Source of the DNA: Microtetraspora sp. NBRC 16547
Lineage (GTDB): Bacteria; Actinomycetota; Actinomycetes; Streptosporangiales; Streptosporangiaceae
Assembly: GCF_030268965.1 (NCBI RefSeq)
Contig: NZ_BSSE01000007.1
Coordinates: forward strand, 186,001 to 250,000
Direction: 5' to 3'
Length of the DNA: 64,000 nt
Shown here: piece after piece, positions 1,814 to 23,479 of the stretch
How positions within the stretch are numbered: the first letter of the stretch is position 1
Layout of the letters: each line of letters opens with the position of its first letter
Made by a program: the position numbers and the translations under genes
Notes under the pieces: model-generated
Databases searched by the model: none
Told to the model about the DNA's origin: nothing
The model's input: only the letters and a program-made list of their open reading frames with translations

Positions 1814-3625
1814 ATGAAGCGTGTAGCAGCGGTTGTGTCGTTGCTCAGCCTTGCCGCCGTCACTGTGACGGCGTGCAGCAGCACCAGTACGGGTGGAAGT
1901 TCAGCCGGTGGCGGCGTCTTCACCACCATCGACGGCTTCAAGCCGGGTCTCGACGTCAACGGGCCGATCAACCCGTGGAACCCCAAGGGCAACATGTTCC
2001 AGGGGTACAACGCGATGAAGCTCGGGTGGAAGAAGAACCACCTGACCGACCCGAACCAGTTCTATCCCGGCATCGCCGCGAGCTGGGAGATCGCGCCCGA
2101 CAACTCCTCGATCACGCTGCACCTGCAGCCGAACAACAAGTGGTCCGACGGCACGCCCGTCACCGCCGAGGATGTCAAGCTCTCCATCGCCCTCGCGTAC
2201 ACGCAGGGCAGCACGGCCTTCTCCGTCGACCCCGGAGCCGCGGGCGCGGCCTCCGACGTGGAGATCATCGACGACCACACGGTCAAGATCTCTCAGGACA
2301 TGAGCAACCCCAGTGTCACGTTCGTCCGTGGCGTAATGGACAGCTTCGTCGTCCCGGCCCACATCTGGAAGGACGCGGTCCCCGCCAACTTCTGGGACAC
2401 CCTCAAGGCCGCCCGCGGTGAGGGCGCCGAGGCCGAGAAGGCCCGCGCCGAGATCACCGCCCAGGCGGACAAGGTGCTCGCCTTCGCGCCGGCCAAGGAC
2501 GTCTCCGCCGGGCCGTTCACCCTGGAGCGGATGAACCCGGGCGAGGCACTTCTCGTCAAGAACAAGAACTTCTACAACGCCGCCAACGTCGGCCCCGACC
2601 AGGTCAAGCTGCTCAACTACACGGGTAACGAGCAGATTTGGAACTACCTGATTTCGGGTAAGCTCGACAATGCGCCGTTCACCGCGGTGCCGGCCGACGT
2701 GATGAAGCGGATCGGCCAGACGCCTGGAAACGCGGTCGTCAAGGGCTTCTCGCCCGTCTCGGTCGCGATGGCGTTCAACCAGTCCAAGAAGCCCTACGAC
2801 AACGTCCACGTGCGCAGGGGCCTCGCCTACCTCATCAACCGGGACGAGATCACCAAGATCGCCTCTCCCGAGGGCGGCACCCCCGCGCTGACCACCACGG
2901 GCATCCACCAGAAGCCCGCGGAGGCGTGGCTGGGCTCCGAACTGAGCGAGCTCGAGCCGTACAAGCTCGACGTGGCCAAGGCGGAGAAGGAGTTCAAGGA
3001 AGCCGGTCTGAAGAAGACCGGCGGCAAGTGGACGCTTCCTGACGGGAAGCCGTGGAAGTTCACGATCAACGTGCCCGCGCCGTTCTCCGACTGGGTGTCC
3101 GCGGCCAAGGCCGTGACCAGCCAGCTCAACGAGGCGGGCGTCAGCGCCGAGGTGCTCACCAGCGCCGACTACCCGCTCTACCTTTCGGAGCTGGCGGCGG
3201 GCAAGTACGACGTCGGCTTCTGGCTCGTGGCCCTCGGCCCCGCGCCGTACAACATCTACCAGCGCCTCTACGGCGCCTCCAACGGTTGGTCCATCCTCGG
3301 CGGCAAGATCAAGCACTCTGCCCCGGGCAAGGACGGCAACTGGATGGGCAGCCCCGAGACGATCGATGTCAAGGGCGTCGGGAAGGTCAACCCCGGCGAG
3401 CTCACCGGCAAGCTGAACACCGCTCCCGAGTCCGAGCAGAAGGCGATCATCAGCCAGCTCGCCAAGGCGGCCAACCAGGACCTGCCCGTTATCCAGCTGT
3501 GGGACTACGTCAACACGCAGTTCATCAACACGAACCGGTTCACCGGTTTCCCGGAGAACGAGAGCGACCTGCTCCGGGAGACCTCCGGTGTGTGGATCCA
3601 GCTCGGAATGATCAAGAAGAAGTAG
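1814..3625 (+). CDS. ABC transporter substrate-binding lipoprotein, SBP family 5 (peptide/muropeptide type)
   Basis: A 603-residue extracytoplasmic solute receptor. The N-terminus has a lipoprotein signal: MKR, a hydrophobic stretch, then the lipobox VTAC with Cys at about 21, followed by a Ser/Gly/Thr linker. The body follows family 5 (DppA/OppA/MppA-like): NNKWSDGTPVTAEDVKLSIAL near residue 110, VRRGLAYLINRDEI around 340, and a late LPVIQLWDYVN. This family binds oligopeptides, some oligosaccharides and, in MppA, murein tripeptide. It heads a five-gene importer (two permeases, two ATPases) with a 4-nt gap to the first permease. The muropeptide enzymes downstream make cell-wall fragments the likely cargo; that is inference from context. 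Confidence 0.88.
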   Translation: MKRVAAVVSLLSLAAVTVTACSSTSTGGSSAGGGVFTTIDGFKPGLDVNGPINPWNPKGNMFQGYNAMKLGWKKNHLTDPNQFYPGIAASWEIAPDNSSITLHLQPNNKWSDGTPVTAEDVKLSIALAYTQGSTAFSVDPGAAGAASDVEIIDDHTVKISQDMSNPSVTFVRGVMDSFVVPAHIWKDAVPANFWDTLKAARGEGAEAEKARAEITAQADKVLAFAPAKDVSAGPFTLERMNPGEALLVKNKNFYNAANVGPDQVKLLNYTGNEQIWNYLISGKLDNAPFTAVPADVMKRIGQTPGNAVVKGFSPVSVAMAFNQSKKPYDNVHVRRGLAYLINRDEITKIASPEGGTPALTTTGIHQKPAEAWLGSELSELEPYKLDVAKAEKEFKEAGLKKTGGKWTLPDGKPWKFTINVPAPFSDWVSAAKAVTSQLNEAGVSAEVLTSADYPLYLSELAAGKYDVGFWLVALGPAPYNIYQRLYGASNGWSILGGKIKHSAPGKDGNWMGSPETIDVKGVGKVNPGELTGKLNTAPESEQKAIISQLAKAANQDLPVIQLWDYVNTQFINTNRFTGFPENESDLLRETSGVWIQLGMIKKK

Positions 3626-3629
3626 GTTC

Positions 3630-4670
3630 ATGACGCTCATCGGGGTCCCGGGACGTTCCGGGGTAATCGCTGTCGCACGACGACTCGCGGGCCACCTGGC
3701 CCGCGGGCTCGTCATGATCCTGGTGGTCACCACGATCAGCTTCCTGATCATCAGGAACATTCCCGGTGACCCCATGGCGGCCAAGTACGAGAAGCTCGTC
3801 GAGCAGGGCATGTCGCCCGAGGCGGCCCAGCAGGCGGTCAACGTTCTGTACGGCTTCATGCCGACGGGCAGCATGTGGGAGCAGTACCTCGACTACATGA
3901 AGGGGCTGGCCCGGTTCGACCTCGGCCAGTCGCTGAACGTGCCGGGCACCGGCGTGGGGACTGTGCTCATGTCCGCGGCCAAGTGGACGCTGATCCCGGT
4001 GCTCGCCGGGACCCTGCTGAGCTTCCTGGTCGGCATCATCCTCGGGGTCTACGCCGCGATCAAGCGCCAGAGCAAGGTCGGCGACCTGCTCGCGATCTCC
4101 GGATCGCTGCTGCACGGCCTGCCGCAGTACGTGCTGGCGCTGCTGCTCGCGGCGATCTTCACCACGCTGATCCCCATCCTCCCCGCGGGAGGAACCGCCG
4201 ACATCATGTTCGAGCCGGGCTTCAACGCCGGCTACATCGGCTCGCTGATCCAGCACGCCACGCTGCCCGTCGTGACGTACGCGCTGTCCAGCTACGGCGG
4301 TTGGATCCTGGCCATGAAGTCCAGCGTGGTCACCGTGCTCGGCGACGACTTCATCCTCGCCGCCGAACTGCGCGGGATGAAGCGCTCGATCATCTTCAGG
4401 TACATCGCGCGCAACGCGATCCTGCCGCTCTTCACGATCCTCGCGCTGTCGCTCGGCATGCTGTTCGGCGGGGCCATCTTCATCGAGCGGATCTTCAACT
4501 ATCCGGGTCTCGGGCTGATGCTCATCGACAGCATCACCGGACGCGACTACGCCCTCATGGGCGGCGCGTTCCTGCTCATCACGGTTGCGATCATCATCGC
4601 GAACATCGCGGCCGACCTGCTGTACACCGTCATCGACCCCCGGGTCAGAAGCGGAGGTGAGGCGGCATGA
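3630..4670 (+). CDS. ABC importer permease 1 (DppB/OppB type)
   Basis: A 346-residue inner-membrane permease with about six transmembrane segments. The first (GLVMILVVTTISFLIIRNIP) is followed by a long external loop, as in DppB-type proteins. The EAA-like coupling loop is visible as ILAAELRGMKRSIIFRYIAR near residues 245-265, followed by NAILPLFTILALSLGMLFGGAIFIERIFNYPGLG, the hallmark of the B-type subunit. It follows the receptor by 4 nt and overlaps the next permease by an ATGA junction, so translation is coupled. Confidence 0.9.
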   Translation: MTLIGVPGRSGVIAVARRLAGHLARGLVMILVVTTISFLIIRNIPGDPMAAKYEKLVEQGMSPEAAQQAVNVLYGFMPTGSMWEQYLDYMKGLARFDLGQSLNVPGTGVGTVLMSAAKWTLIPVLAGTLLSFLVGIILGVYAAIKRQSKVGDLLAISGSLLHGLPQYVLALLLAAIFTTLIPILPAGGTADIMFEPGFNAGYIGSLIQHATLPVVTYALSSYGGWILAMKSSVVTVLGDDFILAAELRGMKRSIIFRYIARNAILPLFTILALSLGMLFGGAIFIERIFNYPGLGLMLIDSITGRDYALMGGAFLLITVAIIIANIAADLLYTVIDPRVRSGGEAA

Positions 4671-5575
4671 CCGCGACGACGATCATGCCGGAGGCGCGCA
4701 GCGCCTCGGCGACCCTGCGCCGCAACTTCTGGCGCGGCGTCTGGCGGGTCATGAAGCGCAAGCCCAGCCGGATGGCCGGCGTGGTCATCATGGCCGGGTT
4801 CGCCTTCATGGGCGTCTTCGGGCCGATGTTCTACCCGGAACATCTGCCGCGTGACACGTCGGCGCTCTACGCGCCGCCGAGCTGGGCGCACCCGTTCGGC
4901 ACCGACTTCGAGGGCACCGACGTGCTCGCCCTCGTCATCACCGGATCGCGCTACGTCCTGCTGACCGGCCTGGTCACCGCGGTGATCACGGTCGTGCTCG
5001 GCGCGGGCATCGGGCTGTTCGCCGGGTTCAGGCGCGGACGCTGGGACAGCGTCCTCATGCGGATCACCGACATGAAGCTGACGATCCCCGGCCTGCCGCT
5101 GATGCTGGTGCTGTCCACGATCTGGAAGTTCACCAGCGCCATCGAGATGGGCCTCGTGCTCGGCCTGCTCGGCTGGGGCGGCGTGGCCCGCGCCGTGCGC
5201 TCCCAGACCCTCTCCCTGCGCGAGCGCGGGTTCGTGGAGGCCGCCAGGGGACTCGGTCTGTCCACGCCGCACATCATCGGCAGGGAACTGCTGCCCAGCA
5301 TGGCCCCGTACATCGCGATGAACATGCTCATCGCGGTCACCGGAGCCGTGTACGCGCAGGTGGGCCTCTTCTTCCTCGGCGTCCTGCCGTTCGAGGCCAA
5401 CAACTGGGGCGTGATGCTCAACCTCGCCGTGTTCGGGGGCGGCGCGCTGACCACGACCGCGGCCCTGCCGTACCTTCTGGCGCCGCTGCTGGCGATCCTG
5501 TTGCTCACCCTGGGCATCGTGCTCGTCGTCGACGCCATGGACGAGATCTTCAACCCCCGTCTGCGTGAGGAGTGA
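4667..5575 (+). CDS. ABC importer permease 2 (DppC/OppC type)
   Basis: A 302-residue membrane protein and the C-type partner of the preceding permease. Seen are an N-terminal segment (MAGVVIMAGFAFMGVFGPMF), the HPFGTDFEGTDVLALVITGS motif typical of OppC/DppC, and a coupling loop FVEAARGLGLSTPHIIGREL near residue 190. A C-terminal segment ends LTLGIVLVVDAMDEIFNPRLR, the standard family ending. ATGA overlap with the upstream permease; the next gene begins 4 nt after the stop behind a GAGGAG ribosome site. Confidence 0.9.
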   Translation: MTATTIMPEARSASATLRRNFWRGVWRVMKRKPSRMAGVVIMAGFAFMGVFGPMFYPEHLPRDTSALYAPPSWAHPFGTDFEGTDVLALVITGSRYVLLTGLVTAVITVVLGAGIGLFAGFRRGRWDSVLMRITDMKLTIPGLPLMLVLSTIWKFTSAIEMGLVLGLLGWGGVARAVRSQTLSLRERGFVEAARGLGLSTPHIIGRELLPSMAPYIAMNMLIAVTGAVYAQVGLFFLGVLPFEANNWGVMLNLAVFGGGALTTTAALPYLLAPLLAILLLTLGIVLVVDAMDEIFNPRLREE

Positions 5576-5578
5576 CCG

Positions 5579-6618
5579 GTGTCCGTGACTTCTGACAAGA
5601 GGGCGCCGGGCGTCCGCATCAGTGACCTGTCCGTCGTCTACCGCACCGGCGCGGGCGAGCTACCCGCCGTCCGGGGCGTCGACCTCGAGCTCGAACCCGG
5701 GACGATCACCGGCGTGGTCGGCGAGTCCGGCTCCGGCAAGTCCACCCTGGCGCTGTCGATGCTCAACGCGGTGCAGCCGCCCGGCCGGATCAGGTCGGGA
5801 AGCGTGGAGATCGACGGCCTCGGCGACGTCGTGACCCTGGGCGGCGACGACCTGCGCAAGACGCGCGGCCGGCACGTCGGCTACGTCTTCCAGGCCGCGC
5901 AGAACTCGCTCAACCCGCTCAAGACGGTCGGCAAGCAGCTCCTCGACCTGGGCCGCTCGCACGATGTTGACGACCTGCCCGGCCTGGTCAAGGAGGCGCG
6001 GAGCCTCCTCGACCGGATGGGTTTGGACGGGGCACGGGTTCTCGACTCCTACCAGCACGAGCTGTCCGGCGGCATGCGCCAGCGCGTCGGCATCATGCTC
6101 GCGCTGGTGCTCAACGCCCACGTCGTCGTCCTGGACGAGCCCACCACGGCGCTCGACATGATCACCCAGGCGACCATCCTGCGGATCATCCGCGAGGTCC
6201 ACGAGGAGCGCGGCCTCACCACGCTCGTCATCACCCACGACCTCGGCGTCGTCGCCGAGATCGCCGACCGGCTCGCCGTCATGTACGGCGGTCGCCTGGT
6301 CGAGCAGGGCCCGACCAGGGAGGTGCTGGGCGCGCCCAAGCACCCGTACACACAGGGCCTGCTCCAGGCGATCCCGCGCCTGGTCGGCGACATCGACGAG
6401 GCCAGGGCGCTGCCCGGCCGCCCGCCGACGCTGGGCACCATCCCGCCCGACGGGTGCGTGTTCCGCGAGCGCTGCGCCGTCCGCATGGACGTGTGCGAGA
6501 CCGGCGAGCCGCCCGTCCTCACCATCGGACCGCGCGTGGTGGCCTGCCACACGGCGGCCGGCGACGGGGAGCAGAAGGAGACCGTCACGACGGGACCCAC
6601 GAGAGGGGAGGAGCAGGC

Positions 6619-6622
<4 letters not shown>
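5579..6622 (+). CDS. ABC importer ATP-binding protein 1 (DppD/OppD type)
   Basis: A 347-residue ATPase that powers the importer from the cytoplasmic side. Walker A is GESGSGKST (about residue 48), the Q-loop lies in GYVFQAAQNSLNPL, the ABC signature is LSGGMRQR, Walker B is VVVLDEPTTALD and the switch His is in VITHDL. The C-terminal oligopeptide-type extension is present (HPYTQGLLQAIP, then CVFRERCAVRMDVC, the Cys cluster of Dpp/Opp ATPases). The GTG start at 5579 has GAGGAG six bases upstream. The stop overlaps the ATG of the second ATPase. Confidence 0.92.
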
Positions 6623-7625
<1,003 letters not shown>

Positions 7626-7629
<4 letters not shown>

Positions 7630-8537
7630 CCGCCGCCAAGGGGCTCACCGGGGACGCCGCCCGGCAGGTCGCCGCAGGGATCCGCGAGGCGTCCGGAGAG
7701 ATCGAGGCGCTCGGCGAGCTCGCCGCGGCGGCGCTCACCCTCGACGCCGCCGACGCGCCGCTGCTGGTCGCCCGGCTCGCCACGCCGCCGGCGGACCGCC
7801 GCTGGACCGCGCTGGCGACGGACGGCCTCGACGGGGTCGTCCTCACCTCCGTGTCCACGCGCGACCCCAGCGTCGGCCACCTCGATCTGCTCGCCGTACA
7901 TCCGGACGCCCGGGGCGAGGGACGCGGGCGGGCGCTGGTCGCGGCGGCCGAGGAGTGGCTGCGAGCCGAAGGCGTCACGACCGTGCGCGTCGCCGGCAAC
8001 CCGCCTGCCTACGCCTGGCCGGGCATCGACGTGCGCTACACCCCTGCCGCCTGCCTGGTCGAGTCGCTCGGCTACGAGCGGGAGGGCGTCGCCTGGAACA
8101 TGACCGCCGACCTGTCCTGCGGTCACTCCACGGCGGACGACGTCGAACGGCTGGCCGCCAAGGGCGTCGCCATACACGCGGCGGAGCCGGGCGACCGGGC
8201 CGCGGTGACGGCGTTCGTCCGCGAGGAGTGGAACGAGAGCTGGGCGTGGGAGGCCGAGCAGGCCACCGGCTGCCACTACGCCACCCGCGACGGGGAGATC
8301 ATCGGATTCGCCGCCTGGGGGGCCAGGCCCGCCTGGTTCGGCCCGATGGGCACCGCACCCGCCGCGCGCGGGCTCGGCGTCGGCGGCGTGCTGCTGCGTC
8401 GCTGCCTGGCCGAGATGCACGCGGCGGGCCTGTCGAGCGCGCAGATCTCCTGGGTGGGGCCGCTCCGGTTCTACTCCGGCGCGGTCGGTGCGCGGGCGGA
8501 GCGTGTCTTCTGGCTCTACCGGCGGGACCTGCGGTGA
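7626..8537 (+). CDS. Tandem GNAT N-acetyltransferase, possibly GlmA-like (glucosamine/glucosaminide)
   Basis: A 303-residue protein beginning GTG in a GTGA overlap with the ABC ATPase, so it is the sixth gene of the importer operon. It holds two GNAT folds. The first has LDLLAVHPDARGEGRGRALVAAAE (acetyl-CoA loop, residues about 80-105). The second has MGTAPAARGLGVGGVLLRRCL (about 240-260). Tandem GNATs acetylate amines. Clostridium acetobutylicum GlmA, a two-domain GNAT encoded beside the MurNAc/GlcNAc kinase MurK, re-acetylates glucosamine from the wall. The operon context suggests the same role here, but substrate assignment is inference. It is convergent with namZ, only 10 bp away. Confidence 0.75.
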
Positions 8538-8547
8538 CGGCCGGATG

Positions 8548-9711
8548 TCACGGGTAGAGCAGCTTCCCGCCGGACAGCCAGGCCTCCGGGTGGCAGGGGG
8601 AGGGGCACAGGTCGCGGGGGTCCGCCCCCGCGTCCAGCCGCTCGCGCAGCGACGGGGAGCCCCACAGCAGGTCCATGAAGTGCTGCCCGCCCGTGGTATC
8701 CGTTTCGGTGGCGTCGGCTGTGGTCCAGGCGAACCCTTCGGGGTGCTGCGAGTGGTAGACGTGCAGCATCGACACCCCGGTCAGCACCGGCTGGAAGGCC
8801 ACCGGGTCGTGCACGTGCAGCTGGACCCCGCGTACCGCCGTTCCCGCGTGCTTGCCGAAGGCCGGGGTGAACCAGGTGTCGCGGAACCGCACGCCGGGCA
8901 ACCCGAGACGGTTCAGCTCCGCGGCGAACCGGGCGTCGAGGCCGGGTGCGCCGACCAGCTCGAACGGCCGGGTGGTGCCCCGGCCCTCGGACGCGGTCGT
9001 GCCCTCGAACAGGCCGGTCCCCGGGTAGGCCAGCGCCGTCTCCGTGGTCGGCATGTTCACCGACGGCATGATCCAGGGCAGGCCGGTGTCCGCGAAGCGC
9101 ATGTGCCGCCGCCAGCCCTCGTTCACGATCACGGTCAGATCCACGCCGATCGACTCGTTGAGGAGGAGCGCCAGCTCGCCGATGGTCAGGCCGTGCCGTA
9201 CCGGGATGGCCGCCCGGCCCACGAAGCTGGCGCAGGCGGGGTCGAGCAGCGGCCCCTCGGCGCGGGTGCCGCCGAGCGGGTTGGGCCGGTCCAGCACCGC
9301 GAAGCGCAGCCCCAGCCGGGCCGCCGACTTCATGAGGTCGTGCATCGTCCACACGAAGGTGTAGAAGCGCGTCCCCACGTCGGCGATGTCGAAGACCAGC
9401 GTGTCCACGCCCGACGACGCCACCAGCGCGTCCAGGGCGTCGCCGTGCCTGCCGTACGTGTCGAGGACCGGGAGCCCGGTCGCCGGGTCACGGCCCGAGT
9501 CCTCGCTGAAGCCCGCCTGCGCCGTGCCGCGGATCCCGTGCTCGGGACCGAACAGGGCGGTCAGCGGCACACCCGCCGCCCGCAGCGCCGTGGCGGTCGG
9601 GGTCAGATCGGGAAGAACCCCGGTGGGGTTGGTGACGAGGCCGATCCGGCCTCCTCGCAGGAGATCGGGATCGGCCGCGAGCCGCTCGGCACCGGTTCGT
9701 ACATGTGACAT
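8548..9711 (-). CDS. namZ: NamZ-type exo-beta-N-acetylmuramidase (DUF1343), apparently cytoplasmic
   Basis: A 387-residue DUF1343 protein. Family motifs are complete: LFGPEHGIRG, VDTLVFDIADVGTRFYTFVW, FAVLDRPNPLGG, MPSVNMPTTETALAYPGTGLFEGT and SEGRGTTRPFELVGAP. Bacillus subtilis NamZ (YbbC) removes non-reducing terminal MurNAc from wall glycan and founds GH171. The start at MSHVRTGAERL (9711) has GGAG upstream; the longer open frame lacks a ribosome site. No signal peptide is seen, unlike the secreted Bacillus enzyme, which suggests it acts on imported fragments. It is divergent from murQ across a 67-bp AT-rich promoter region. Confidence 0.88.
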   Translation of the reverse strand: MSHVRTGAERLAADPDLLRGGRIGLVTNPTGVLPDLTPTATALRAAGVPLTALFGPEHGIRGTAQAGFSEDSGRDPATGLPVLDTYGRHGDALDALVASSGVDTLVFDIADVGTRFYTFVWTMHDLMKSAARLGLRFAVLDRPNPLGGTRAEGPLLDPACASFVGRAAIPVRHGLTIGELALLLNESIGVDLTVIVNEGWRRHMRFADTGLPWIMPSVNMPTTETALAYPGTGLFEGTTASEGRGTTRPFELVGAPGLDARFAAELNRLGLPGVRFRDTWFTPAFGKHAGTAVRGVQLHVHDPVAFQPVLTGVSMLHVYHSQHPEGFAWTTADATETDTTGGQHFMDLLWGSPSLRERLDAGADPRDLCPSPCHPEAWLSGGKLLYP

Positions 9712-9778
9712 GATCCCATTCTCCGAAGAATTTTTGCATAATGGAACCATCCGGTGAAAATTAGCGACATGGAACGAG
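9712..9778. promoter_or_regulatory. Divergent namZ/murQ promoter region with candidate MurR sites
   Basis: A short AT-rich region between divergent starts. It contains GAAAATTAG at 9756-9764, which fits the loose consensus GAARNTTA shared by all four promoter regions of the salvage locus. An imperfect inverted repeat GAAGAATTTTTGC lies at 9725-9737. This is a plausible site for the RpiR-type regulator, but no -35/-10 pair was clear. Confidence 0.35.
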
Positions 9779-10702
9779 ATGATTGATCCACTCGCCGACC
9801 TGTCCACAGAGCAGAGCGATCCACGCTACAGCGAGATCGACCGGCTGCCCACCGAACAGGTCGCCAGGCTCATGAACGCGGCCGACGCCAAGGTCCCTGC
9901 GGCGGTCGCCGTGGCGATCCCGGAGATCTCGGCCACCATCGACGCGATCGTCGCCCGCATGAAGCAGGGGGGACGGCTCTTCTACGTGGGCGCCGGGACC
10001 TCCGGCCGCCTCGCGGTGCTCGACGCGTCCGAATGTCCGCCCACCTTCGGCACCGACCCCGAGCTCGTGCAGGGCATCATCGCGGGCGGCGTGCCCGCGC
10101 TGACCCGCTCGGTCGAGGGAGCCGAAGACGACGACGCCGCCGGAGCCGCGGCCATCCGCGCCCAGGAGGTGGGCCCGCTCGACTCCGTCGTCGGGGTCTC
10201 CGCCAGCGGGCGGGCGCCGTACGTGCTCGGAGCCCTCGGCGAGGCGTCCCGCAGGGGCGCCCTGACCGCGGCTCTGTCGTGCAACAAGGGATCCGCGCTC
10301 TCCGCCGCGTCCGAGCACCCGATCGAGGTGATCGTCGGGCCCGAGATCGTGACCGGATCGACCCGCCTCAAGGCCGGGACCGCGACGAAGCTCGTCCTCA
10401 ACATGATCTCGACGATCGCGATGGTCCGGCTCGGCCGGACGTACGGGAACTCGATGATCGAGGTCTCCGCGGCCAACTCCAAGCTCGCCGACCGGGCCGC
10501 CCGCATGGTCGGCGACATCACCGGCGCCGGCCTGGACACCGCCCAGGAGGCCCTGGAGGCGGCGGGCTGGCAGGTAAAGGCGGCCGTGCTCATGATCGAG
10601 CACGACCTCGGGGCGGACGACGCCAAGGCGCTGCTCCAGGCCAACGGCGACCGCTTGGAGGCGGCGCGGCAGGCCGCGTCTGGGGGAGCGCTGGGTGCCT
10701 GA
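9779..10702 (+). CDS. murQ: N-acetylmuramic acid 6-phosphate etherase
   Basis: A 307-residue SIS-domain lyase that cleaves the D-lactyl ether of MurNAc-6-phosphate to give GlcNAc-6-phosphate and D-lactate. Diagnostic segments: VGAGTSGRLAVLDASECPPTFG (sugar-phosphate loop and catalytic Glu, residues about 68-90), VVGVSASGRAPYVLGAL, ETVTGSTRLKAGTATKLVLN-like EIVTGSTRLKAGTATK, and GRTYGNSMIEVSAANSKL. The length matches E. coli MurQ (298). It overlaps the following serine hydrolase gene by 8 nt and is divergent from namZ. It is the convergence point of MurNAc salvage in this locus. Confidence 0.95.
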   Translation: MIDPLADLSTEQSDPRYSEIDRLPTEQVARLMNAADAKVPAAVAVAIPEISATIDAIVARMKQGGRLFYVGAGTSGRLAVLDASECPPTFGTDPELVQGIIAGGVPALTRSVEGAEDDDAAGAAAIRAQEVGPLDSVVGVSASGRAPYVLGALGEASRRGALTAALSCNKGSALSAASEHPIEVIVGPEIVTGSTRLKAGTATKLVLNMISTIAMVRLGRTYGNSMIEVSAANSKLADRAARMVGDITGAGLDTAQEALEAAGWQVKAAVLMIEHDLGADDAKALLQANGDRLEAARQAASGGALGA

Positions 10703-11873
10703 CAGGCCGGGCGACCGCACCGACATCGGATCCGGTGACGATCCCTCCGGGGCCATGCCGGACGTCCCGGGGAATCCGGTCCGGGACGTCTCCACACCGG
10801 AGACCTCCGCCGGACTCTCCCGGATCCTGGAGGATGCGGTGCCGGCGGCCTGCTCGGCGGCGGTCGCGGTGATCGCCGTGGAGGGAACCGTCGTCGCCGC
10901 GGCCGCGGCGGGCGAGGCCGTACGTTATTCAGGAGCCACGGAGGCGCTCTTGGAGAAACGTCCCCCCGCCCGTCGCGACTCGGTCTTCGACCTCGCCTCG
11001 ATCACCAAGCTGTTCACCACCGCTGCCATCCTGTCGCTGGTGGAGGACGGCCTCCTCGGGCTCGACGAGCCGGTCGCCACCTGGCTCCCCGCGGCGTACG
11101 GAGGGCACCACGCGACCACGCTGCGGCATCTGCTCACCCACACGGCCGGTCTGCCGCCGAGCCGCCGGGCCCACGAGGAGATCCCCGGCGACGGCCCCGC
11201 CGCGCACGCCGCGCGGATGGAGCTGATCCTCACCACCCGGCCGGACCACCCCCTCGGGGAGCGGTACGTCTACTCCGACGTCGGCATGGTGACGGCGGGC
11301 CGGGTGGCCGAGATCGCCGGGGGAGCGCCCCTCGACGAGCTCGTAGGCACCCGTGTCATCGGGCCGCTCGGCCTGACGAGCACCTGCTACCGCCCTCCGG
11401 CCGCGCTGCTCCCGCGCGTCGTCGCGACCGAGTACCAGGCCGACCGCCCCGGTCCCGGCTGCATCAGGGGCGAGGTCCATGACGAGACCGCCTACGGCCT
11501 CGGCGGGGTCGCCGGGCACGCCGGGCTGTTCTCCACGGCGGACGACCTCGTCCGCTTCGGGGAAACCCTGCGCACCGGGGGCGGGCCGATCCTGCGCCCG
11601 GACACGGTGGCGGAGATGGCCCGCGACCAGGGCGTCACGGGGGCGGCGTTCGACCACGGGCTCGGCGTCCGCATCGGCGACCCCGCCATCGTGGGGCCAC
11701 TCGGCCGCGCCTACGGCCACTCCGGGTTCACCGGGACCGCCCTCGTCGTCGACCCCGAACGGGCGCTGACCGTCGTCCTGCTGACCAACAATGTCCACCC
11801 CGTACGTGGCCGGCCGGGCATCCGCGACCTGCGCCACGCCGTCGCCGCCGAGGCGCTCCGGATCGCGTCCTGA
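10695..11873 (+). CDS. Serine beta-lactamase-fold hydrolase, AmiE-like muropeptide amidase candidate
   Basis: A 392-residue protein of the class C beta-lactamase/PBP4* fold. The active-site SxxK is SITK in FDLASITKLFTTAA (around residue 100), the second motif is YSD in RYVYSDVGM, and the KTG-like element is HSG in GHSGFTGTALVVDP. In Bacillus the murQ-namZ-nagZ operon contains AmiE (YbbE), a serine amidase of this fold that strips the stem peptide from MurNAc. Position directly behind murQ, overlapping it by 8 nt, supports the same role. The N-terminal 35 residues are hydrophilic with no signal peptide, implying cytoplasmic action. An esterase or D,D-peptidase role is possible; an ATG at 10755 is an alternative start. 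Confidence 0.78.
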   Translation: MPDRPGDRTDIGSGDDPSGAMPDVPGNPVRDVSTPETSAGLSRILEDAVPAACSAAVAVIAVEGTVVAAAAAGEAVRYSGATEALLEKRPPARRDSVFDLASITKLFTTAAILSLVEDGLLGLDEPVATWLPAAYGGHHATTLRHLLTHTAGLPPSRRAHEEIPGDGPAAHAARMELILTTRPDHPLGERYVYSDVGMVTAGRVAEIAGGAPLDELVGTRVIGPLGLTSTCYRPPAALLPRVVATEYQADRPGPGCIRGEVHDETAYGLGGVAGHAGLFSTADDLVRFGETLRTGGGPILRPDTVAEMARDQGVTGAAFDHGLGVRIGDPAIVGPLGRAYGHSGFTGTALVVDPERALTVVLLTNNVHPVRGRPGIRDLRHAVAAEALRIAS

Positions 11874-16851: not shown

Positions 16852-17751
16852 TCATCCCGTCTTGGTACGCCGGCGGGAGTCCTCGAGGTAGCCGTTGACC
16901 GCGGCACGGGTGGCGCGTAAGGCGGAGTCTGAGGTGTCGAAGGTGCGCTGGGCGACCCCGACGAAGATGCAGTCGACGATGAGGAGCTGGCTGATCCGGC
17001 TGGCCAGCGATCCCGGGCGGAAGGCCGTCTCCCGGCCCGCCGAGACCAGTACGTGGTCGGCGAGTTCGGCCAGCGAGGACCGGGGGTTGTTGGTGATCGC
17101 GACGGTGGTGGCCCCGGCCGCGCTCGCCACCCGCATCGGGCCGAACACGTCGGGCGTCTCGCCGGTGCAGCTCACTCCGATGGCGACGTCACCGGATCGG
17201 ACGAGCGCCGCGCTGGTGAGGGCGAGATGCGCGTCGGTGAAGGAGTGGCCGGGGAGCCCGATCCGCATCAGCTTCTGCGCCATGTCGACCGCGACGAGGC
17301 CGGAGGCGCCGACCCCGTACGTGTCGACCCGGCGCGCGGTGGCCACGGCCTCCACGACGGCGGCCAGCCGTTCCGGGGCCAGTTGGGCGGCGGTGTCGGC
17401 GAGGGCCTCGGACTCGGCCCGGGTGACCTTCGCGATCACGTCGGTGAGGGGATCGTCCGGCCCGAGGTCGCCGGGGACCAGGCGCTCGGGCTTGGCCCGC
17501 GCGACCGCGCCCGCGAGGGCGAAGCGGAGCTGGGAGTAACCGGCGAACCCGAGGGCCCTGGCGGTGCGCACGATCGTGGCCTCGCTCGTTCCCGAGGCCG
17601 CGCTGAACTCGGTGATGGTGCTGGCGGCGACCATCGCGGGATCGTCCAGGATGAGCCGGGCGACGGACTGGGCCGCGGGTGTGAGGGAGGGCAGGATCGC
17701 CCGCACCGTCGCGACCAGGTTGACCGGGGTTGGGCCCTCGTGTTCGTTCAC
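16852..17751 (-). CDS. RpiR/MurR-type transcriptional regulator (HTH + SIS)
   Basis: 299 residues from the GTG at 17751, which overlaps the nagZ stop as GTGA behind an AGAAGG ribosome site. The N-terminal HTH_6 domain reads SEATIVRTARALGFAGYSQL. The SIS sugar-phosphate domain follows (YGVGASGLVAVDMAQKLMRI; VAIGVSCTGETPDVFGPMRV; VAITNNPRSSLAELADHVL). Family members such as E. coli MurR sense sugar phosphates, MurNAc-6-P in that case. Co-transcription with nagZ and the nearby murQ, namZ and anmK make it the likely regulator of the locus; effector and operator are inferred. Confidence 0.88.
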   Translation of the reverse strand: MNEHEGPTPVNLVATVRAILPSLTPAAQSVARLILDDPAMVAASTITEFSAASGTSEATIVRTARALGFAGYSQLRFALAGAVARAKPERLVPGDLGPDDPLTDVIAKVTRAESEALADTAAQLAPERLAAVVEAVATARRVDTYGVGASGLVAVDMAQKLMRIGLPGHSFTDAHLALTSAALVRSGDVAIGVSCTGETPDVFGPMRVASAAGATTVAITNNPRSSLAELADHVLVSAGRETAFRPGSLASRISQLLIVDCIFVGVAQRTFDTSDSALRATRAAVNGYLEDSRRRTKTG

Positions 17752-19370
17752 CCTTCTGCCTTCTCCTGTCGGGGTCGCGTTCGTTCGCTGCCGGTGAGCC
17801 ATCGGGCGACAACGCGCTCAGATGCCCGCGAGACGCCGTGTGTAGTGACATATACCGCGCCAACCGGTTGAGCGGGAATGCCAGTCTCCACCACGATCGC
17901 GTCCGGCCGGGCCTGTACGGCCGTCGCCAGCAGTTCGTGGACCCACGCGTGCCTGCCCGCGTCGTGGACGACCAGCACGACCGGCCGGTCACCACTCAGA
18001 TCGGGAAGCGTCGTGGCCTCCGCGGTGATCGTATGTCCCTCCGTGCCCGGAAGCAGCTCGTTCAGCTCACGGGTGAGGCCCACCGGCGCACCGGACTCGA
18101 CCGCCCGGCTCATCCGGGGTGCGATGTGGACCACCAGAGGCGGCTCGGAGATCGGGACCGGCTGGGGAGTGCCAGTGGTGGGGGCGCCGGTGGTGGGGGC
18201 GCCGGTGGTGGGGGCGCCGGGTACGACGACGCGCATGGCCGCGCGGGCCACCTCCAGGCCGAGCTGCTCGCCGCTCTTCTCGGCGCCCTCCTCGACGCTC
18301 TCCTCGTCCGTCCCCTCGGCGTATCCGCGACCGGGACGTTCCTGGGCCGCGCGCCGCGTGGCCGCCTGGGCGGTGTGCCAGTCGGCGACGGCGAGGACCC
18401 GGGCCGCGGCCTCGGCGAGGCGCTCCTCGGGCAGCCGTCCGTCGCGGACCGCCGCGACGATCGCGTCACGCAGCGCGTAGACGCTCTCACCGCCGGGGGA
18501 GGAGACCCCCACGCAGATCGCGTCCGCACCGGCCATGAGCGCGCGTACGGCGACCTCGCCGGGCGGGTGGAGGGCGGCGACGGCGCGCATCTCGATCGCG
18601 TCGGTGACGAGCATCCCGCGGAAGCCCAGCTCCTCGCGGAGCAGCCCGGTCAGGATCCGCCGGCTGAGCGTGGCGGGGCCGTCCGGGTCGAGCGCGGGCA
18701 CCAGCAGGTGGCCGCACATCATCGACTGGACGCCGGCCTCCACCGCCGCGCGGAACGGCGGCAGGTCACGCTCGCGGAGCACCTCAAGGGACGCGTGGAC
18801 GGTCGGCAGCGCGAGGTGCGAGTCGGTGACGGTGTCGCCGTGGCCGGGGAAGTGCTTGGCGCACGCGGCCACCCCCTCGGCCTGGAGGCCAGTGATCCAG
18901 GCGGCGGTGTGGCGGGCGACGAGCTCGGGATCGGGGCCGAAGGAGCGGATGCCGATCACCGGGTTGGCCGGGTTGGCGTTGACGTCCGCCACGGGCGCGT
19001 AGTTCAGCGTGACGTCCGCCGCGGCGAGCAGCCGGCCGATGGCCCGGGCGACCTGCTCCGTCCGGGTGACGTCGTCCACCACGCCCAGCGCCCGGTTGCC
19101 GGGCCATGAGCTGCCGGGCCCGGCCTCGAAGCGGGTGACCGCGCCGCCCTCCTCGTCGGCCGCGACGACCACGGCCGGGTTCTCCTCGCGCAGCGCGGCG
19201 ACGAGCGCGGCGGTCTGCGGGACGTCCACGATGTTGCGCGCGAACAGCACGGCGCCGCCGAGGCCGTCGGCGAGCGCCCGGCGGAGCCAGTCGGGCGGTG
19301 TGACGCCGTCGAAGCCGGGCTGGAGGACGGTCATGGCCAGCCGGTCCAGGCTGGAGCTGCTTGCGGACAT
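17748..19370 (-). CDS. nagZ: Beta-N-acetylhexosaminidase NagZ (GH3), apparently cytoplasmic
   Basis: 540 residues from the ATG at 19370, behind GGAGGG; a longer open frame to 19517 has no ribosome site. The GH3 domain shows AADEEGGAVTRFEAG, CAKHFPGHGDTVTDSHLALP (Asp-His general acid/base dyad) and MLVTDAIEM with the Asp nucleophile region. It releases non-reducing GlcNAc from muropeptides. A C-terminal domain of about 150 residues follows (VVLVVHDAGRHAWVHELLAT), as in longer Gram-positive NagZ. No signal peptide is visible. A GAPTT repeat joins the domains. It forms an operon with the RpiR regulator and is divergent from the GHL10 gene. Confidence 0.92.
   Translation of the reverse strand: MSASSSSLDRLAMTVLQPGFDGVTPPDWLRRALADGLGGAVLFARNIVDVPQTAALVAALREENPAVVVAADEEGGAVTRFEAGPGSSWPGNRALGVVDDVTRTEQVARAIGRLLAAADVTLNYAPVADVNANPANPVIGIRSFGPDPELVARHTAAWITGLQAEGVAACAKHFPGHGDTVTDSHLALPTVHASLEVLRERDLPPFRAAVEAGVQSMMCGHLLVPALDPDGPATLSRRILTGLLREELGFRGMLVTDAIEMRAVAALHPPGEVAVRALMAGADAICVGVSSPGGESVYALRDAIVAAVRDGRLPEERLAEAAARVLAVADWHTAQAATRRAAQERPGRGYAEGTDEESVEEGAEKSGEQLGLEVARAAMRVVVPGAPTTGAPTTGAPTTGTPQPVPISEPPLVVHIAPRMSRAVESGAPVGLTRELNELLPGTEGHTITAEATTLPDLSGDRPVVLVVHDAGRHAWVHELLATAVQARPDAIVVETGIPAQPVGAVYVTTHGVSRASERVVARWLTGSERTRPRQEKAEG
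18175..18219. repeat. 15-bp x 3 in-frame repeat inside nagZ
   Basis: Three nearly identical copies of the unit GTGGTGGGGGCGCCG encode (GAPTT) in the interdomain linker of NagZ. The 15-bp period keeps the frame, so copy-number slippage would only alter linker length. Confidence 0.85.
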
Positions 19371-19507
19371 GAGCTCACCCTCCTGTGTGGACGTCTTGAA
19401 GCAGGTTACACATCGATGACACTTTCTTTCATCATCATTGATCTGAAAGTAAGTTTCTGCCAATGTCGCGGTCGGTGCCTTCTTCTTCATGCCCCCTGGA
19501 GGTCCGC
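19371..19507. promoter_or_regulatory. Divergent nagZ/GHL10 control region
   Basis: An AT-rich intergenic region. It contains the near-palindrome GAAAGTAAGTTTC at 19445-19457 (reverse strand GAAACTTAC), which matches the GAARNTTA motif seen upstream of the importer, namZ/murQ and kinase/anmK. It is the most symmetrical candidate operator for the RpiR-type regulator in the locus. Confidence 0.4.
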
Positions 19508-21070
19508 ATGAGTTCACCTACCCGACGTTCTGTCCTGCGTGGCCTGGCTCTGGCCGCCGCCGCGACGGCTCTCCCCGTGTCGGGCCTAACCTCGATGCCC
19601 GCCTTCGCCGCCGGGAGCTCCGACGGCCACATCCCCCCGCTGCGCCAGATGCGCGGGATGTGGATCGCCTCGGTGGTCAACATCGACTGGCCGTCGAAGC
19701 CGGGACTCACCGTCGACCAGCAGAAAGCCGAATACCTCGCCTGGCTGGACCTGGCGCAGGTCCGCAAGCTGAACTCGGTCTTCGTCCAGATCCGGCCGAC
19801 CGCCGACGCCTTCTGGCCCTCGTCGTTCGAGCCGTGGTCGGAGTGGCTGACCGGCGTGCAGGGACAGGACCCGGGCTACGACCCGCTGGGCTTCCTCGTC
19901 GAGGAGACGCACCGGCGGGGCATGGCCTTCCACGCCTGGTTTAACCCGTACCGCGTGTCGATGCAGTCGAACCCGGCCAAGCTCCACCCCGAGCACCCGG
20001 CCCGCAAGCACCCGGACTGGATCGTCTCGTACGGTGGAAAGCTCTACTACAACCCCGGAATTCCGGAGGTACGGGCTTTCGTCCAGGACGCGATGATGGA
20101 CGCGATCACCCGGTACGACATCGACGGCCTGCACTTCGACGACTACTTCTACCCGGTCAACTCCACGGCGTTCGACGACAGTGCGGCCTTCGCGCAGTAC
20201 GGCGCGGGCTTCCCCGACCTCGCCTCCTGGCGGCGCCACAACGTCGACCTGCTCGTCCAGGAGATGCAGCAGCGCGTACGGCAGGCCAAGCCGGAGGTCG
20301 CCTGGGGCATCAGCCCGTCGGGCATCTGGCGGAACAAGTCCACCGACCCCCTCGGCTCGGACACCGCCGGCGGCCAGTCCTACGACAACCTGCACGCCGA
20401 CACGCGGGGCTGGGTCAGGAAGGGCTGGCTGGACTACATCGCGCCGCAGATCTACTGGTACATCGGCCAGTGGAACGCCGACTACGCGAAGCTGATCCCC
20501 TGGTGGTCCGGCGTGGCGGCCGGTACCGACGTGCAGTTGTGGATCGGCCAGGCCGCCTACAAGGCCGGTGTCGACGGGCAGCCTGCCGAGTGGTTCCAGC
20601 CGGACGAGCTCACCCGGCACCTCACGCTCAACCGGAACCATCCGGAGGTCGGCGGGGACATCTGGTTCAGCGCCGCCGACGTGCGCGAGAACCGGCTGGG
20701 CTCCCTCTCCACGGTCGCGACCGACCACTACACCCGACCGGCCCTCGGCCCGCTGCTGCCGCGCCTCGCGAACGGCCAGGCCCCGCGGCGTCCGGTCCTG
20801 GCCACCGCCCGCCGGGCGGCCGGAGGCGCCGAACTGCACATCGTCGCGACCGGCAGCACCATCCCGTTCCAGTTCGCGGTCTTCCGGTTGGACCGGGAGG
20901 CGGGGGCGGGCGACTTCGCCGACGCCCGCAACCTGGTCGCGCTCGTCCCGGCGGACCGCAACGTGCGCTGGGTGGATCCCGAAGGCGGCCAGGGCGTGAC
21001 CTACTACGTCGCGGCCGTGGACCGGGCGAACCGCATGAGCGAGCCGAGCGACGGCCGCACGGTCCGCTGA
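19508..21070 (+). CDS. Secreted GHL10-family glycoside hydrolase (YngK-like, former DUF187)
   Basis: 520 residues from the ATG at 19508 (GGAGG 5 nt upstream). A twin-arginine signal is clear: RRSVLRGLALAAAATALP followed by AFAAGSS as a cleavage site. The catalytic barrel starts MRGMWIASVVNIDWPSKPGL and continues NSVFVQIRPTADAFWPSSFE, MAFHAWFNPYRVS and DIDGLHFDDYFYP (acidic pair expected at the active site). A fibronectin-like C-terminal domain ends the protein. GHL10 members act on cell-wall or related glycans. It is the only exported enzyme in the locus and may generate fragments for import. Confidence 0.85.
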   Translation: MSSPTRRSVLRGLALAAAATALPVSGLTSMPAFAAGSSDGHIPPLRQMRGMWIASVVNIDWPSKPGLTVDQQKAEYLAWLDLAQVRKLNSVFVQIRPTADAFWPSSFEPWSEWLTGVQGQDPGYDPLGFLVEETHRRGMAFHAWFNPYRVSMQSNPAKLHPEHPARKHPDWIVSYGGKLYYNPGIPEVRAFVQDAMMDAITRYDIDGLHFDDYFYPVNSTAFDDSAAFAQYGAGFPDLASWRRHNVDLLVQEMQQRVRQAKPEVAWGISPSGIWRNKSTDPLGSDTAGGQSYDNLHADTRGWVRKGWLDYIAPQIYWYIGQWNADYAKLIPWWSGVAAGTDVQLWIGQAAYKAGVDGQPAEWFQPDELTRHLTLNRNHPEVGGDIWFSAADVRENRLGSLSTVATDHYTRPALGPLLPRLANGQAPRRPVLATARRAAGGAELHIVATGSTIPFQFAVFRLDREAGAGDFADARNLVALVPADRNVRWVDPEGGQGVTYYVAAVDRANRMSEPSDGRTVR

Positions 21071-21115
21071 TCCGCGCACCTGGACGACCCGCACCATCCA
21101 CCCCCGGATGACCCA

Positions 21116-21162: not shown

Positions 21163-21185
21163 CCGGGGACCGGGACCCGCGCCGG

Positions 21186-22196
21186 TCAGGCGATGAGCCT
21201 CCGGTGGGCGGCCATGACCTCCCGGGCATCAGGGGCGTCCGGCGCGGCGTGGTGCAGGGCCAGGGCGGCCGCCCCGGCCGCGCCGTCACGAGCGGCGAGC
21301 GTGGGGCGGCCGAGCCCGGACCTGACCAGCTCGGCCAGCACGGTGGGGTTGGTGAGCAGCGACCCAGCGAGCACCGTCGGCCCGGTCTCCTCGCCCAGGG
21401 ACTCCGCCGTGGCGACGAGCCGGTCCGCGGCCTCCTGGAGGATCGCGAGAGCGGTCGCGTCACCCAGGCGCGCCGCGGCCTCGACCGCGGGAGCGAACCG
21501 TCCCAGCCACGCGGGACCGGCCTCCGTGACCCCGGCCTGGACCGCACGCACGACCCGGTCCGGCGAGAGGCGCACGGCCCCTCCTCTGGCGCCGGGCTCG
21601 CCCGGAACGTCGATCAGGGTGTCGTCGACAAGGGCGTCGCGGAGCGAGCACTCCGGCGGCCCGTCGAGCAGCGCCGTGGGCGCGCCCCGGCCGTCGAGCG
21701 CGGCCAGCAGGGCCTGTACCGCCCGCCGTCCGATCCACACCCCCGACCCCTCGTCCCCGAGGATCCAGCCGTACCCGTCGGCGCGCGCGACGATGGCGCG
21801 CTCGTGGATCCTGGCGGCGATCGCGCCGGTCCCCGCGATCAGGACCGTCCCCGACGGCTCCTCGGTGGCGCCGGCGAACGCGGCGAGGATGTCGGGCACG
21901 ACCACGGGCCGTCCGGACAGCCCGCAGGCCCGCCACGCCTCGGTGGCGAGGCGCTCGGCCCGCTCCGGGGCCGAGCCCGCGCCCGCGAGGGCGAACACGC
22001 CGCCCACGACCCGGTCCGGCGCGATGCCGGTGAGGGCGTCCTCCAGCGCGGTCCGCAGGCTGCCGACGGGATCGGCGGCGGAGAGCACGTTGGCGCCCGA
22101 GCCGCGTCCCCTTCCGGCCACCTGGCCCGTACGTGTCGCCACCACGCAGCGGGTGCCCGTCCCGCCGCCGTCGACGCCGATGACCAGAGTCGTCAC
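21186..22196 (-). CDS. BadF/BadG/BcrA/BcrD-family sugar kinase (MurK/NagK-like)
   Basis: A 336-residue ASKHA-fold kinase. Phosphate-1 loop VIGVDGGGTGTRCVVA at the N-terminus, FALAGAGSAPERAERL, phosphate-2 GTVLIAGTGAIAARI, and the motif YGWILGDEGSGVWIGRRAV (residues about 140-160) that defines the eukaryotic-type GlcNAc kinase branch. Clostridium acetobutylicum MurK, of this family, phosphorylates both MurNAc and GlcNAc at O-6. Because import here is by an ABC system, free MurNAc needs such a kinase before MurQ can act. The start is a GTG at 22196 with GGAGAG upstream. It is divergent from anmK. Confidence 0.85.
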   Translation of the reverse strand: MTTLVIGVDGGGTGTRCVVATRTGQVAGRGRGSGANVLSAADPVGSLRTALEDALTGIAPDRVVGGVFALAGAGSAPERAERLATEAWRACGLSGRPVVVPDILAAFAGATEEPSGTVLIAGTGAIAARIHERAIVARADGYGWILGDEGSGVWIGRRAVQALLAALDGRGAPTALLDGPPECSLRDALVDDTLIDVPGEPGARGGAVRLSPDRVVRAVQAGVTEAGPAWLGRFAPAVEAAARLGDATALAILQEAADRLVATAESLGEETGPTVLAGSLLTNPTVLAELVRSGLGRPTLAARDGAAGAAALALHHAAPDAPDAREVMAAHRRLIA

Positions 22197-22264
22197 ACGC
22201 TCTCCATGTGTAGATAATCTTCCAAGAACTATATTCCTATGAAGAATCCCGACAAGGAGCAGGC
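22197..22264. promoter_or_regulatory. Divergent kinase/anmK promoter region
   Basis: 68 bp of AT-rich DNA between divergent starts. On the minus strand GAAGATTAT (plus-strand 22214-22222) fits the locus consensus GAARNTTA, and AAGGAGC precedes the anmK GTG. The candidate regulator site would overlap the kinase promoter. Confidence 0.35.
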
Positions 22265-23479
22265 GTGCGGGTGCTCGGGCTGATTTCGGGGACGTCCCAC
22301 GACGGGATCGACAGCGCGGTCGTGGACTGGACCATGGCGGACGGCGTGCTCACCGGCGTGATCGAGCACATCGGCGCCCGGCCGTACGAGCCGGAGTTGC
22401 GCGCCAGGGTCGTCGCGGCGCTGCCGCCGCACCGGATCGACATGGCCGAGGTGTGCCGCCTCGACACCCTGATCGGCCAGGCGTTCGCCCGCGCGGCCGA
22501 GGAGTGCCCCGCCGCCGACCTGATCTGCTCCCACGGCCAGACCCTCTACCACTGGGTGGAGGACGGCCGGGCGCGGGGCACGCTGCAGCTCGGCCAGCCC
22601 GCCTGGATCGCCGAGCGGCTCGGCGTCCCGGTCGTCTCCGACCTGCGCGTCCGCGACGTGAGCGCGGGCGGCCACGGCGCCCCTCTGGTGTCCGCCTTCG
22701 ACCTCCCGCTGCTGGCCGGGCTGCCGGGCCGCACCGGGGCGCTGAACCTCGGAGGGATCGCCAACCTCACCGTGCCTGATTCCGCCGTGCCTGATTCCGC
22801 CGTGCCTGACTCCACCGTGCCTGACTCCGCCGTGCCTGACTCCACCGGAATCCACCGGGCCGTCGCCTACGACACCGGTCCGGCCTCCGCCCTGCTGGAC
22901 GCGGCCGTCCTCGCCGCGACCGGCAGGCCGTACGACGAGGACGGCCGTCTCGCGGCGGCGGGGAAGGTCCACGATGGGCTGCTGGCCGAGCTGCTCGCCG
23001 ATCCGTACTACCGGCGCACGCCGCCCAAGAGCACCGGCAAGGAGCTGTTCCACGAGGGATACCTGGCGCGGGTGGCGGCGCCGTACGGGCTGGGGCTGGA
23101 GGACCTGCTCGCGACGCTGGCCGCGCTGACAGGGGAGACGGCGGCGGCGGAGATCCGGCGGCACCGGCTGGACACGGTTGTCGTGTCCGGCGGCGGCCTG
23201 CGCAACCCGGTCCTCATGGGAGAGCTGGAGCGACGGGCGCCCGGCGCGCGGTTCCTGGCCAGCGACGAGCTGGGCGTGCCCTCCGACGCCAAGGAGGCAA
23301 TCGCCTTCTCATTCCTGGGCTGGCTGACCGCGCACGGACTGCCGGGGACGGTTCCCACCTGCACGGGAGCCTCGGGGGCGCGGGTGCTCGGCACCGTCAC
23401 CCCGGGACGGCAGCCGCTGCGGCTCCCCGCGCCCCTCGCGGAGCCGCCGGCGCGTGTCCGCGTGACCGCGGCGCGGTGA
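22265..23479 (+). CDS. anmK: Anhydro-N-acetylmuramic acid kinase
   Basis: 404 residues from the GTG at 22265 behind AAGGAG. AnmK phosphorylates and hydrolyses 1,6-anhydro-MurNAc to MurNAc-6-P, the MurQ substrate. Motifs: [81 protein letters not shown] and [14 protein letters not shown]. It is longer than E. coli AnmK (369), mainly because of five copies of a Val-Pro-Asp-Ser-Ala type pentapeptide inserted right after GIANLT. Its presence implies that lytic transglycosylase products are also salvaged. Confidence 0.94.
22772..22846. repeat. 15-bp x 5 minisatellite inside anmK
   Basis: Five tandem copies of GTGCCTGAYTCCRCC, differing at two positions, encode repeated [10 protein letters not shown]. 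They fall between the conserved GIANLT motif and YDTGPAS, a surface loop in the family. The period of 15 keeps the frame whatever the copy number. Confidence 0.95.

Follow-up and report, generated by a model that had tools for sequence, protein, structure and literature searches.

In Escherichia coli, the recycling of anhydromuropeptides combines an exported enzyme of the lytic-transglycosylase type with import through AmpG, which precedes trimming, and with intracellular NagZ, AnmK and MurQ. Clostridium acetobutylicum has a MurK/NagZ/GlmA system, in which a BadF-family kinase for N-acetylmuramic acid (MurNAc) and N-acetylglucosamine (GlcNAc) occurs together with a tandem GNAT of the type that acetylates glucosamine. 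In Bacillus subtilis, with its murQRP-amiE-nagZ-ybbC(namZ) genes, AmiE and NagZ act outside the cell and MurP belongs to the phosphotransferase system (PTS), according to the cited part of PMC5061867. The same part of that paper reports, for Streptomyces coelicolor SCO4305-SCO4308, that murQ is accompanied by a MurR-like gene, that MurP is lacking and that MurNAc 6-phosphate (MurNAc-6P) accumulates when murQ is absent. YejBEF-YepA of Agrobacterium is described, in the cited part of PMC9790009, as a muropeptide importer replacing AmpG. Here, we describe a locus in a 64,000-nucleotide stretch of the soil actinomycete Microtetraspora sp. NBRC 16547 (contig NZ_BSSE01000007.1, positions 186,001 to 250,000; the window, to which coordinates refer unless another locus is named) that is probably an intracellular peptidoglycan-salvage regulon in the style of E. 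coli, with an Opp-type ATP-binding cassette (ABC) importer in the place of AmpG. In the open-licence literature, we recognised no description of a Gram-positive muropeptide ABC importer or of recycling in this family, the Streptosporangiaceae.

Gene identities were obtained by Pfam and NCBIfam profile searches, which recovered every gene of the inventory given by the initial annotation (namZ, nagZ, murQ, an AmiE-like gene, anmK, a kinase, a tandem GNAT, a MurR-like gene and an ABC importer with its substrate-binding protein, SBP). The starts of NamZ (9711), NagZ (19370), MurR (17751) and GHL10 (19508) were chosen by Shine-Dalgarno sites and comparison. The features are as follows.

1691-1704 and 1722-1735, + strand: two operator-like 14-mers, 31 bases apart, 5' of the SBP gene; matrix scores 20.5 and 21.0; kept in relatives
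1814..3625, + strand: SBP_bac_5 binding lipoprotein, 603 residues, lipobox-like TVTAC; Pfam 6.4e-53
3630..4670, + strand: OppB-like permease; BPD_transp_1 3.7e-33
4667..5575, + strand: OppC-like permease; BPD_transp_1 2.8e-27, OppC_N 4.7e-8
5579..6622, + strand: OppD-like ATPase; ABC_tran 2.6e-26, oligo_HPY
6619..7629, + strand: OppF-like ATPase; ABC_tran 1.2e-29, oligo_HPY
7626..8537, + strand: tandem GNAT acetyltransferase; two Acetyltransf_1 stretches, 2e-18; overlaps the oppF stop
8548..9711, - strand: NamZ exo-N-acetylmuramidase, without signal peptide; NamZ_N 3.1e-71, NamZ_C 1e-43
9725-9738 and 9756-9769, + strand: two operator-like 14-mers in the namZ/murQ gap; scores 18.8 and 21.0
9779..10702, + strand: MurQ, MurNAc-6P etherase; TIGR00274 355 bits, cut-off 302
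10695..11873, + strand: AmiE-like serine hydrolase (Beta-lactamase family), without signal peptide; PF00144 3e-63
16852..17751, - strand: MurR/RpiR-like regulator; SIS 9.8e-20, HTH_6 1.1e-13
17748..19370, - strand: NagZ-like GH3 enzyme, two-part, without signal peptide; PF00933 1.8e-72; motif KHFPGHGDTVTDSH
19417-19430 (- strand) and 19445-19458 (+ strand): two operator-like 14-mers in the nagZ/GHL10 gap; scores 16.7 and 12.6
19508..21070, + strand: GHL10 enzyme with a twin-arginine signal-like N-terminus; PF02638 2.6e-84; Protein Data Bank (PDB) match Cwp19 1.8e-120
21186..22196, - strand: BadF/BadG sugar kinase, MurK/NagK-like; PF01869 (BcrAD_BadFG) 3.3e-29
22209-22222 (- strand) and 22241-22254 (+ strand): two operator-like 14-mers in the kinase/anmK gap; scores 24.1 and 12.0
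22265..23479, + strand: AnmK, anhydro-MurNAc kinase; PF03702 1.1e-95; NF007146 552.8 bits, cut-off 440

Like the E. coli system, the locus has NagZ, AnmK and MurQ of the cytosolic type, all three found by profile (NagZ, signal-less, at 193.8 bits against a cut-off of 207), and an exported enzyme putatively of the lytic-transglycosylase type, and import would precede trimming. It differs in that an Opp-type importer takes the place of AmpG and an AmiE-like serine hydrolase that of AmpD, and NamZ, the BadF kinase and the tandem GNAT are additional. In the whole genome, the best score against the AmpG model TIGR00901 was 20.1 bits, with a cut-off of 350 and a positive E. coli control. The BadF kinase and the tandem GNAT are shared with C. 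acetobutylicum, the likeness of the GNAT being weak.

With B. subtilis, the locus shares the hydrolase set, MurQ and a MurR-like regulator, but here the hydrolases are signal-less, the importer is of the ABC type and the kinases are separate, and neither the export of the hydrolases nor MurP is seen. The genome holds two PTS_EIIC genes outside the locus, with NagE (427.8 bits, cut-off 553.2) and MtlA (481.9 bits, cut-off 468.4) as best models; no PTS gene in the genome had the MurNAc PTS as its best model, no separate MurP model having been tried. A GlmS/NagB-II-like isomerase adjoins the NagE-like gene, and NagA lies on contig 1. Compared by gene make-up rather than by the sequence of YepA, YejBEF-YepA is alike in joining an ABC importer to a dedicated binding protein; it differs in being alphaproteobacterial, with one ATPase gene and with YepA apart from the transporter genes (cited part of PMC9790009), whereas here SBP and oppBCDF form one operon with two ATPases in a murQ regulon. 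SCO4305-SCO4308 is likewise an actinomycete murQ cluster that contains a MurR-like gene and lacks MurP, but the cited part of PMC5061867 names no importer or hydrolase in it.

Conservation of the importer with murQ and a shared promoter element

We surveyed 120 Streptosporangiaceae genomes, that of the window included. The SBP was matched at E values of 1e-100 or better in 43 places in 40 genomes; 41 of these places (38 genomes) had at least 58% identity, and the remaining two had 40% and 38% (G078 and G105). The initial annotation had proposed a comparison of neighbourhoods, and in this comparison a MurQ orthologue lies within 9 kb of the importer in all 41 importer copies, which rules out that an Opp operon is adjacent by chance. 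OppB, OppC, OppD and OppF are found in all 41 neighbourhoods, the tandem GNAT in 37 and the AmiE-like gene in 31. For the other genes, the counts are lower bounds, since the stretches fetched were of unequal length: NagZ is present in at least 22, NamZ and MurR in at least 21 each, BadF in at least 19, GHL10 in at least 7 and AnmK in at least 5. The five neighbourhoods with AnmK, the window among them, all have GHL10 as well. A group of neighbourhoods has BadF and NagZ, often together with MurR, directly 5' of the SBP gene. Among the 80 NamZ contigs fetched, those of 9 named species have the same block of genes as the window. In G078, the divergent importer (39%) stands behind NamZ, GNAT, NagZ and AmiE genes in a different order. 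Three genomes (G084, G097 and G119) have two importer-murQ copies each, one from either group.

Alignments of upstream regions revealed conserved 14-base elements, which in the window's group are often paired in a 31-base register. Starting from our own consensus, a matrix was built on 59 sites from the SBP, murQ and BadF promoters of 22 other genomes, the five genomes of the window's own close cluster being excluded, and the 64 kb were scanned with it. The six best matches (24.1 to 16.7), at 22209, 1722, 9756, 1691, 9725 and 19417, cover all four promoters of the gene set. Seven matches reached at least 14 bits, compared with 0.7 expected from 20 first-order simulations, and 14 reached at least 12, eight of them at the four promoters. 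Because three of the four promoters have orthologues among the training promoters, their matches show conservation and are not predictions. No training site came from the nagZ/GHL10 promoter, but this promoter had been seen before the consensus was written, and its match is therefore not fully blind. The element is presumably bound by the MurR-like protein, whose best NCBIfam match scored 197.5 bits, below the cut-off of 378.

To look beyond the family, 296 genomes of the class were searched with a profile built from ten SBPs, and 13 matched at an E value of 1e-70, four of them from another family. In this second family, a GH3 gene follows the importer in all four copies, its product having the NagZ-type motif KHFPGHG[DG]T..DTH and, as judged by eye, no signal-like N-terminus. 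Two of these GH3 proteins were tested and had beta-N-acetylhexosaminidase as their best NCBIfam model (191.9 and 188.6 bits, below the cut-off of 207).

Within the window, coupled translation is suggested for oppF and the GNAT gene, murQ and amiE, and nagZ and murR, because the two genes of each pair overlap. Between the AmiE-like gene and MurR lie a single GNAT (12059), a MerR-methyltransferase, an APH and a SnoaL gene, which are outside the gene set tested for conservation; the second of these (13018-14160), which lies between the two cluster halves and joins a MerR regulator to a methyltransferase domain, is 97% identical in genome G038. Downstream, at 24244-28788, a P-type ATPase of 1514 residues has about 750 residues ahead of its ATPase domains and stands beside AnmK in two relatives as well. 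The translations contain short repeats, as repeat units in AnmK (22265-23479) and GAPTT units in NagZ (17748-19370). A tRNA-Asp called by ARAGORN at 8399-8488 was weighed as a genuine gene or a site of insertion and rejected as a false positive; it lies within the tandem GNAT gene, and ARAGORN found none in the matching gap of three relatives.

Resemblance of individual proteins and the cargo of the importer

In a single-sequence search of the PDB, the top match of the SBP is a chitin oligosaccharide binding protein (5.5e-21); alignments to solved proteins were too weak for ligand residues to be assigned. The top match of the BadF kinase is a MurNAc/GlcNAc kinase (1.1e-17), from which we infer its acceptor. 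When the kinase was aligned via 1ZXO, the sites of the MurK sugar-site residues SPL and Thr94 (cited part of PMC10465942) were found to hold Asp-Gly-Tyr and Pro, respectively, with no Glu, His or Asn there; as regards space for the lactyl ether in the sugar site, this pattern is permissive but not diagnostic. Elsewhere in the genome (L179, 5355-11640), a BadF kinase, the only one of these proteins identified by profile, has as neighbours an apparent sugar ABC importer, an apparent RpiR regulator and an apparent SIS protein.

The GHL10 enzyme could be aligned with Cwp19 in the PDB over 355 residues (E 1.8e-120), and Cwp19 yields 1,6-anhydromuropeptides according to the cited part of PMC6016235. 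By analogy, the exported GHL10 enzyme would be of the lytic-transglycosylase kind and would feed AnmK, which would explain the presence of the latter. E. coli DigH was dropped as a model for GHL10 in favour of Cwp19; the cited part of its paper (PMC12288456) makes no mention of GHL10 or DUF187. With the serine hydrolase that precedes nagZ-namZ in a Virgibacillus (L140), the AmiE-like protein shares 37% identity, and the window's NagZ shares 43% with the NagZ-like protein of that locus. For the tandem GNAT, the PDB gave weak matches to 4zbg, 5kga and 5kf1 (5.7e-5 to 7.9e-5) and to 4zm6 (8.3e-4). The entries 5KF1 and 5KGA, titled 'Predicted acetyltransferase', are of a solved tandem acetyltransferase that we take to be GlmA; the tandem GNAT may thus be a glucosamine acetyltransferase.

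An SBP_bac_5/OppBCDF importer with oligo_HPY ATPases has the architecture of a peptide importer, and an AmiE-like gene in 31 of the 41 neighbourhoods implies that peptides are around. The importer might therefore be a co-regulated transporter of peptides or murein peptides, similar to MppA-Opp, with the sugars entering by another transporter that feeds the hydrolases. We consider this unlikely: the closest solved SBP by single sequence binds oligosaccharides, the gene set contains no peptidase, and the partners that are retained are enzymes that act on sugars (murQ in all 41 copies, and the NagZ-type GH3 in 4 of 4 in the second family). The similarity to a chitin oligosaccharide binding protein would also fit an importer of chitin or other GlcNAc oligosaccharides, which NagZ would cut, with the murein genes as neighbours that share GlcNAc metabolism; GH3 enzymes can act on chitobiose, and the second family has its copies without murQ in view. 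This appears less likely still, as one promoter element stands on all four promoters and we know of no part played by NamZ, MurQ, AnmK or GHL10 in chitin use.

Location of the hydrolases

Signal peptides were judged by the position at which the frame opens and by a lenient hydropathy rule, not by SignalP. On this basis, NamZ, NagZ and the AmiE-like protein of the window have no signal-like N-terminus, in agreement with the initial annotation, which had also called GHL10 exported by twin-arginine translocation (Tat); the twin-arginine signal-like N-terminus of the latter is in keeping with this. In total, 106 NamZ proteins were examined. Importer-linked NamZ fail the lenient rule in 24 of 28 cases, and NamZ without an importer in view pass it in 70 of 77, some of the 77 lying near contig ends, where an importer could be out of view. 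Three family records equal in length to named contigs were excluded beforehand, and the NamZ of G078, which has no signal, was counted apart. The seven NamZ with neither importer nor signal are two from Kribbella, one each from G106, Microlunatus, Sanguibacter and a Thermomicrobiales metagenome-assembled genome, and one cut by a contig end. None of the 21 linked NagZ and one of the 33 linked AmiE proteins pass the rule. That the hydrolases lack classical signals and act outside nonetheless, after lysis or by another export route, with only the monosaccharides MurNAc and GlcNAc being imported, is the least probable of the alternatives: NamZ, NagZ and AmiE of bacilli do carry signals and are of an extracellular kind (cited part of PMC5061867), but here the frame opens fewer than 18 residues before the core in 5 of 28 NamZ, 5 of 21 NagZ and 6 of 33 AmiE proteins, and a GNAT of the acetyl-CoA type is encoded in the same operon.

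NamZ was also found beside importers of the SBP_bac_1 type. In Kribbella rubisoli (L081, 11098-15953) and G106 (L068, 9154-15400), a signal-less NamZ stands with a second GNAT protein, which in one of the two has two Acetyltransf_7 stretches, an SBP_bac_1 importer and a PIG-L deacetylase. A BadF kinase of G106 (L068, 2924-5189) lies near a second NamZ-MurQ-AnmK cluster, of the SBP_bac_1 type. In the cases examined, the tandem GNAT accompanies signal-less NamZ. An Alkalihalobacillus (L094) has exported NamZ, NagZ and AmiE together with an SBP_bac_1 importer, a BadF kinase and MurQ, and two more bacilli are alike by gene order; the family genome G025 has an exported NamZ with an SBP_bac_1 importer. 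Sanguibacter (L083) was dropped as a further case of an importer-linked signal-less NamZ; its adjacent transporter is an amino-acid permease, and the start of its NamZ is unclear.

Predicted salvage route in actinomycetes

In the intracellular salvage route that we propose, the Tat-type exported GHL10 enzyme and other autolysins would cut glycan strands outside the cell, giving fragments of GlcNAc-MurNAc or GlcNAc-anhydroMurNAc that may or may not carry peptide. These fragments, the predicted ligands, would be captured by the SBP_bac_5 lipoprotein and imported whole by OppBCDF. In the cytoplasm, NagZ would take off GlcNAc, NamZ, where present, would take MurNAc off MurNAc-ended fragments, and the AmiE-like hydrolase would strip the peptide. 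The BadF kinase would then phosphorylate MurNAc and perhaps GlcNAc, AnmK would convert anhydroMurNAc, and MurQ would turn MurNAc-6P into GlcNAc 6-phosphate, with which NagA, encoded elsewhere in the genome, would continue. The tandem GNAT may re-acetylate glucosamine units from a de-N-acetylated wall, and the MurR-like regulator would control the four promoters. The initial annotation had already predicted import, trimming inside and subsequent phosphorylation; this order is supported by the constant association of importer and murQ, by the element on all four promoters and by the signal-less hydrolases, as well as by the results of the AmpG and PTS searches.

Several observations weigh against this reading. 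MurQ is present in 100 of the 120 family genomes, mostly as less similar copies without this importer, so that other entry routes exist in the family. In G099, a close MurQ has no importer within its 20 kb; in G095, the importer is reduced to an oppF remnant; G039 has a partial SBP match only; and the contig of G068 stops 0.8 kb before murQ. None of the 20-kb stretches fetched for the copies of the second family showed a murQ. By profile, 4PFT and 1VR5 rank first among matches of the SBP and the chitin binder ranks tenth. NagZ falls narrowly below the cut-off of the beta-N-acetylhexosaminidase model, the BadF kinase reaches 80 bits with the NagK model, for which the cut-off is 370, and the weakness of the GNAT matches belongs here as well. 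The seventh operator match of at least 14 bits, at 2260, falls inside the SBP gene. Four of the 28 linked NamZ do satisfy the lenient rule, with upstream starts that are antisense to the murQ start and operator. Finally, in a tree of 49 NamZ, the signal-less actinomycete forms make up one clade (18 rows, support 100/99, one row of unclear label inside), outside which the NamZ of G078 and Thermomicrobiales lie, and the contrast in signal peptides therefore amounts to about one evolutionary event. Many independent changes in the location of NamZ are unsupported; on the tree, a single change of label suffices, with a weak support of 56/25.

A wider proposal is possible, although we offer it tentatively and do not favour it outright. 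Gram-positive actinomycetes may possess an equivalent of the E. coli muropeptide pathway, self-contained and intracellular, with an exported GHL10 transglycosylase, a dedicated Opp-type importer of whole GlcNAc-(anhydro)MurNAc(-peptide), cytosolic trimming and a GNAT step for a de-N-acetylated, lysozyme-resistant wall; such a pathway would serve both self-recycling and the scavenging of foreign walls. The missing entry route in actinomycetes without MurP may then be this importer, or the SBP_bac_1 importers beside signal-less NamZ and tandem GNAT in Kribbella and others.

S. coelicolor recycles MurNAc although an orthologue of MurP is missing (cited part of PMC5061867), and a 2026 preprint on mycobacteria posits, in the part cited here, an unknown MurNAc transporter (PMC13041923). 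For the entry step of murein recycling in actinomycetes, a murQ-linked ABC importer under a shared element in 38 of 120 family genomes is a concrete and directly testable candidate. The locus also places a GHL10 enzyme and AnmK in one putative Gram-positive pathway, and it suggests a joint change of the transport route and of the membrane side at which NamZ acts.

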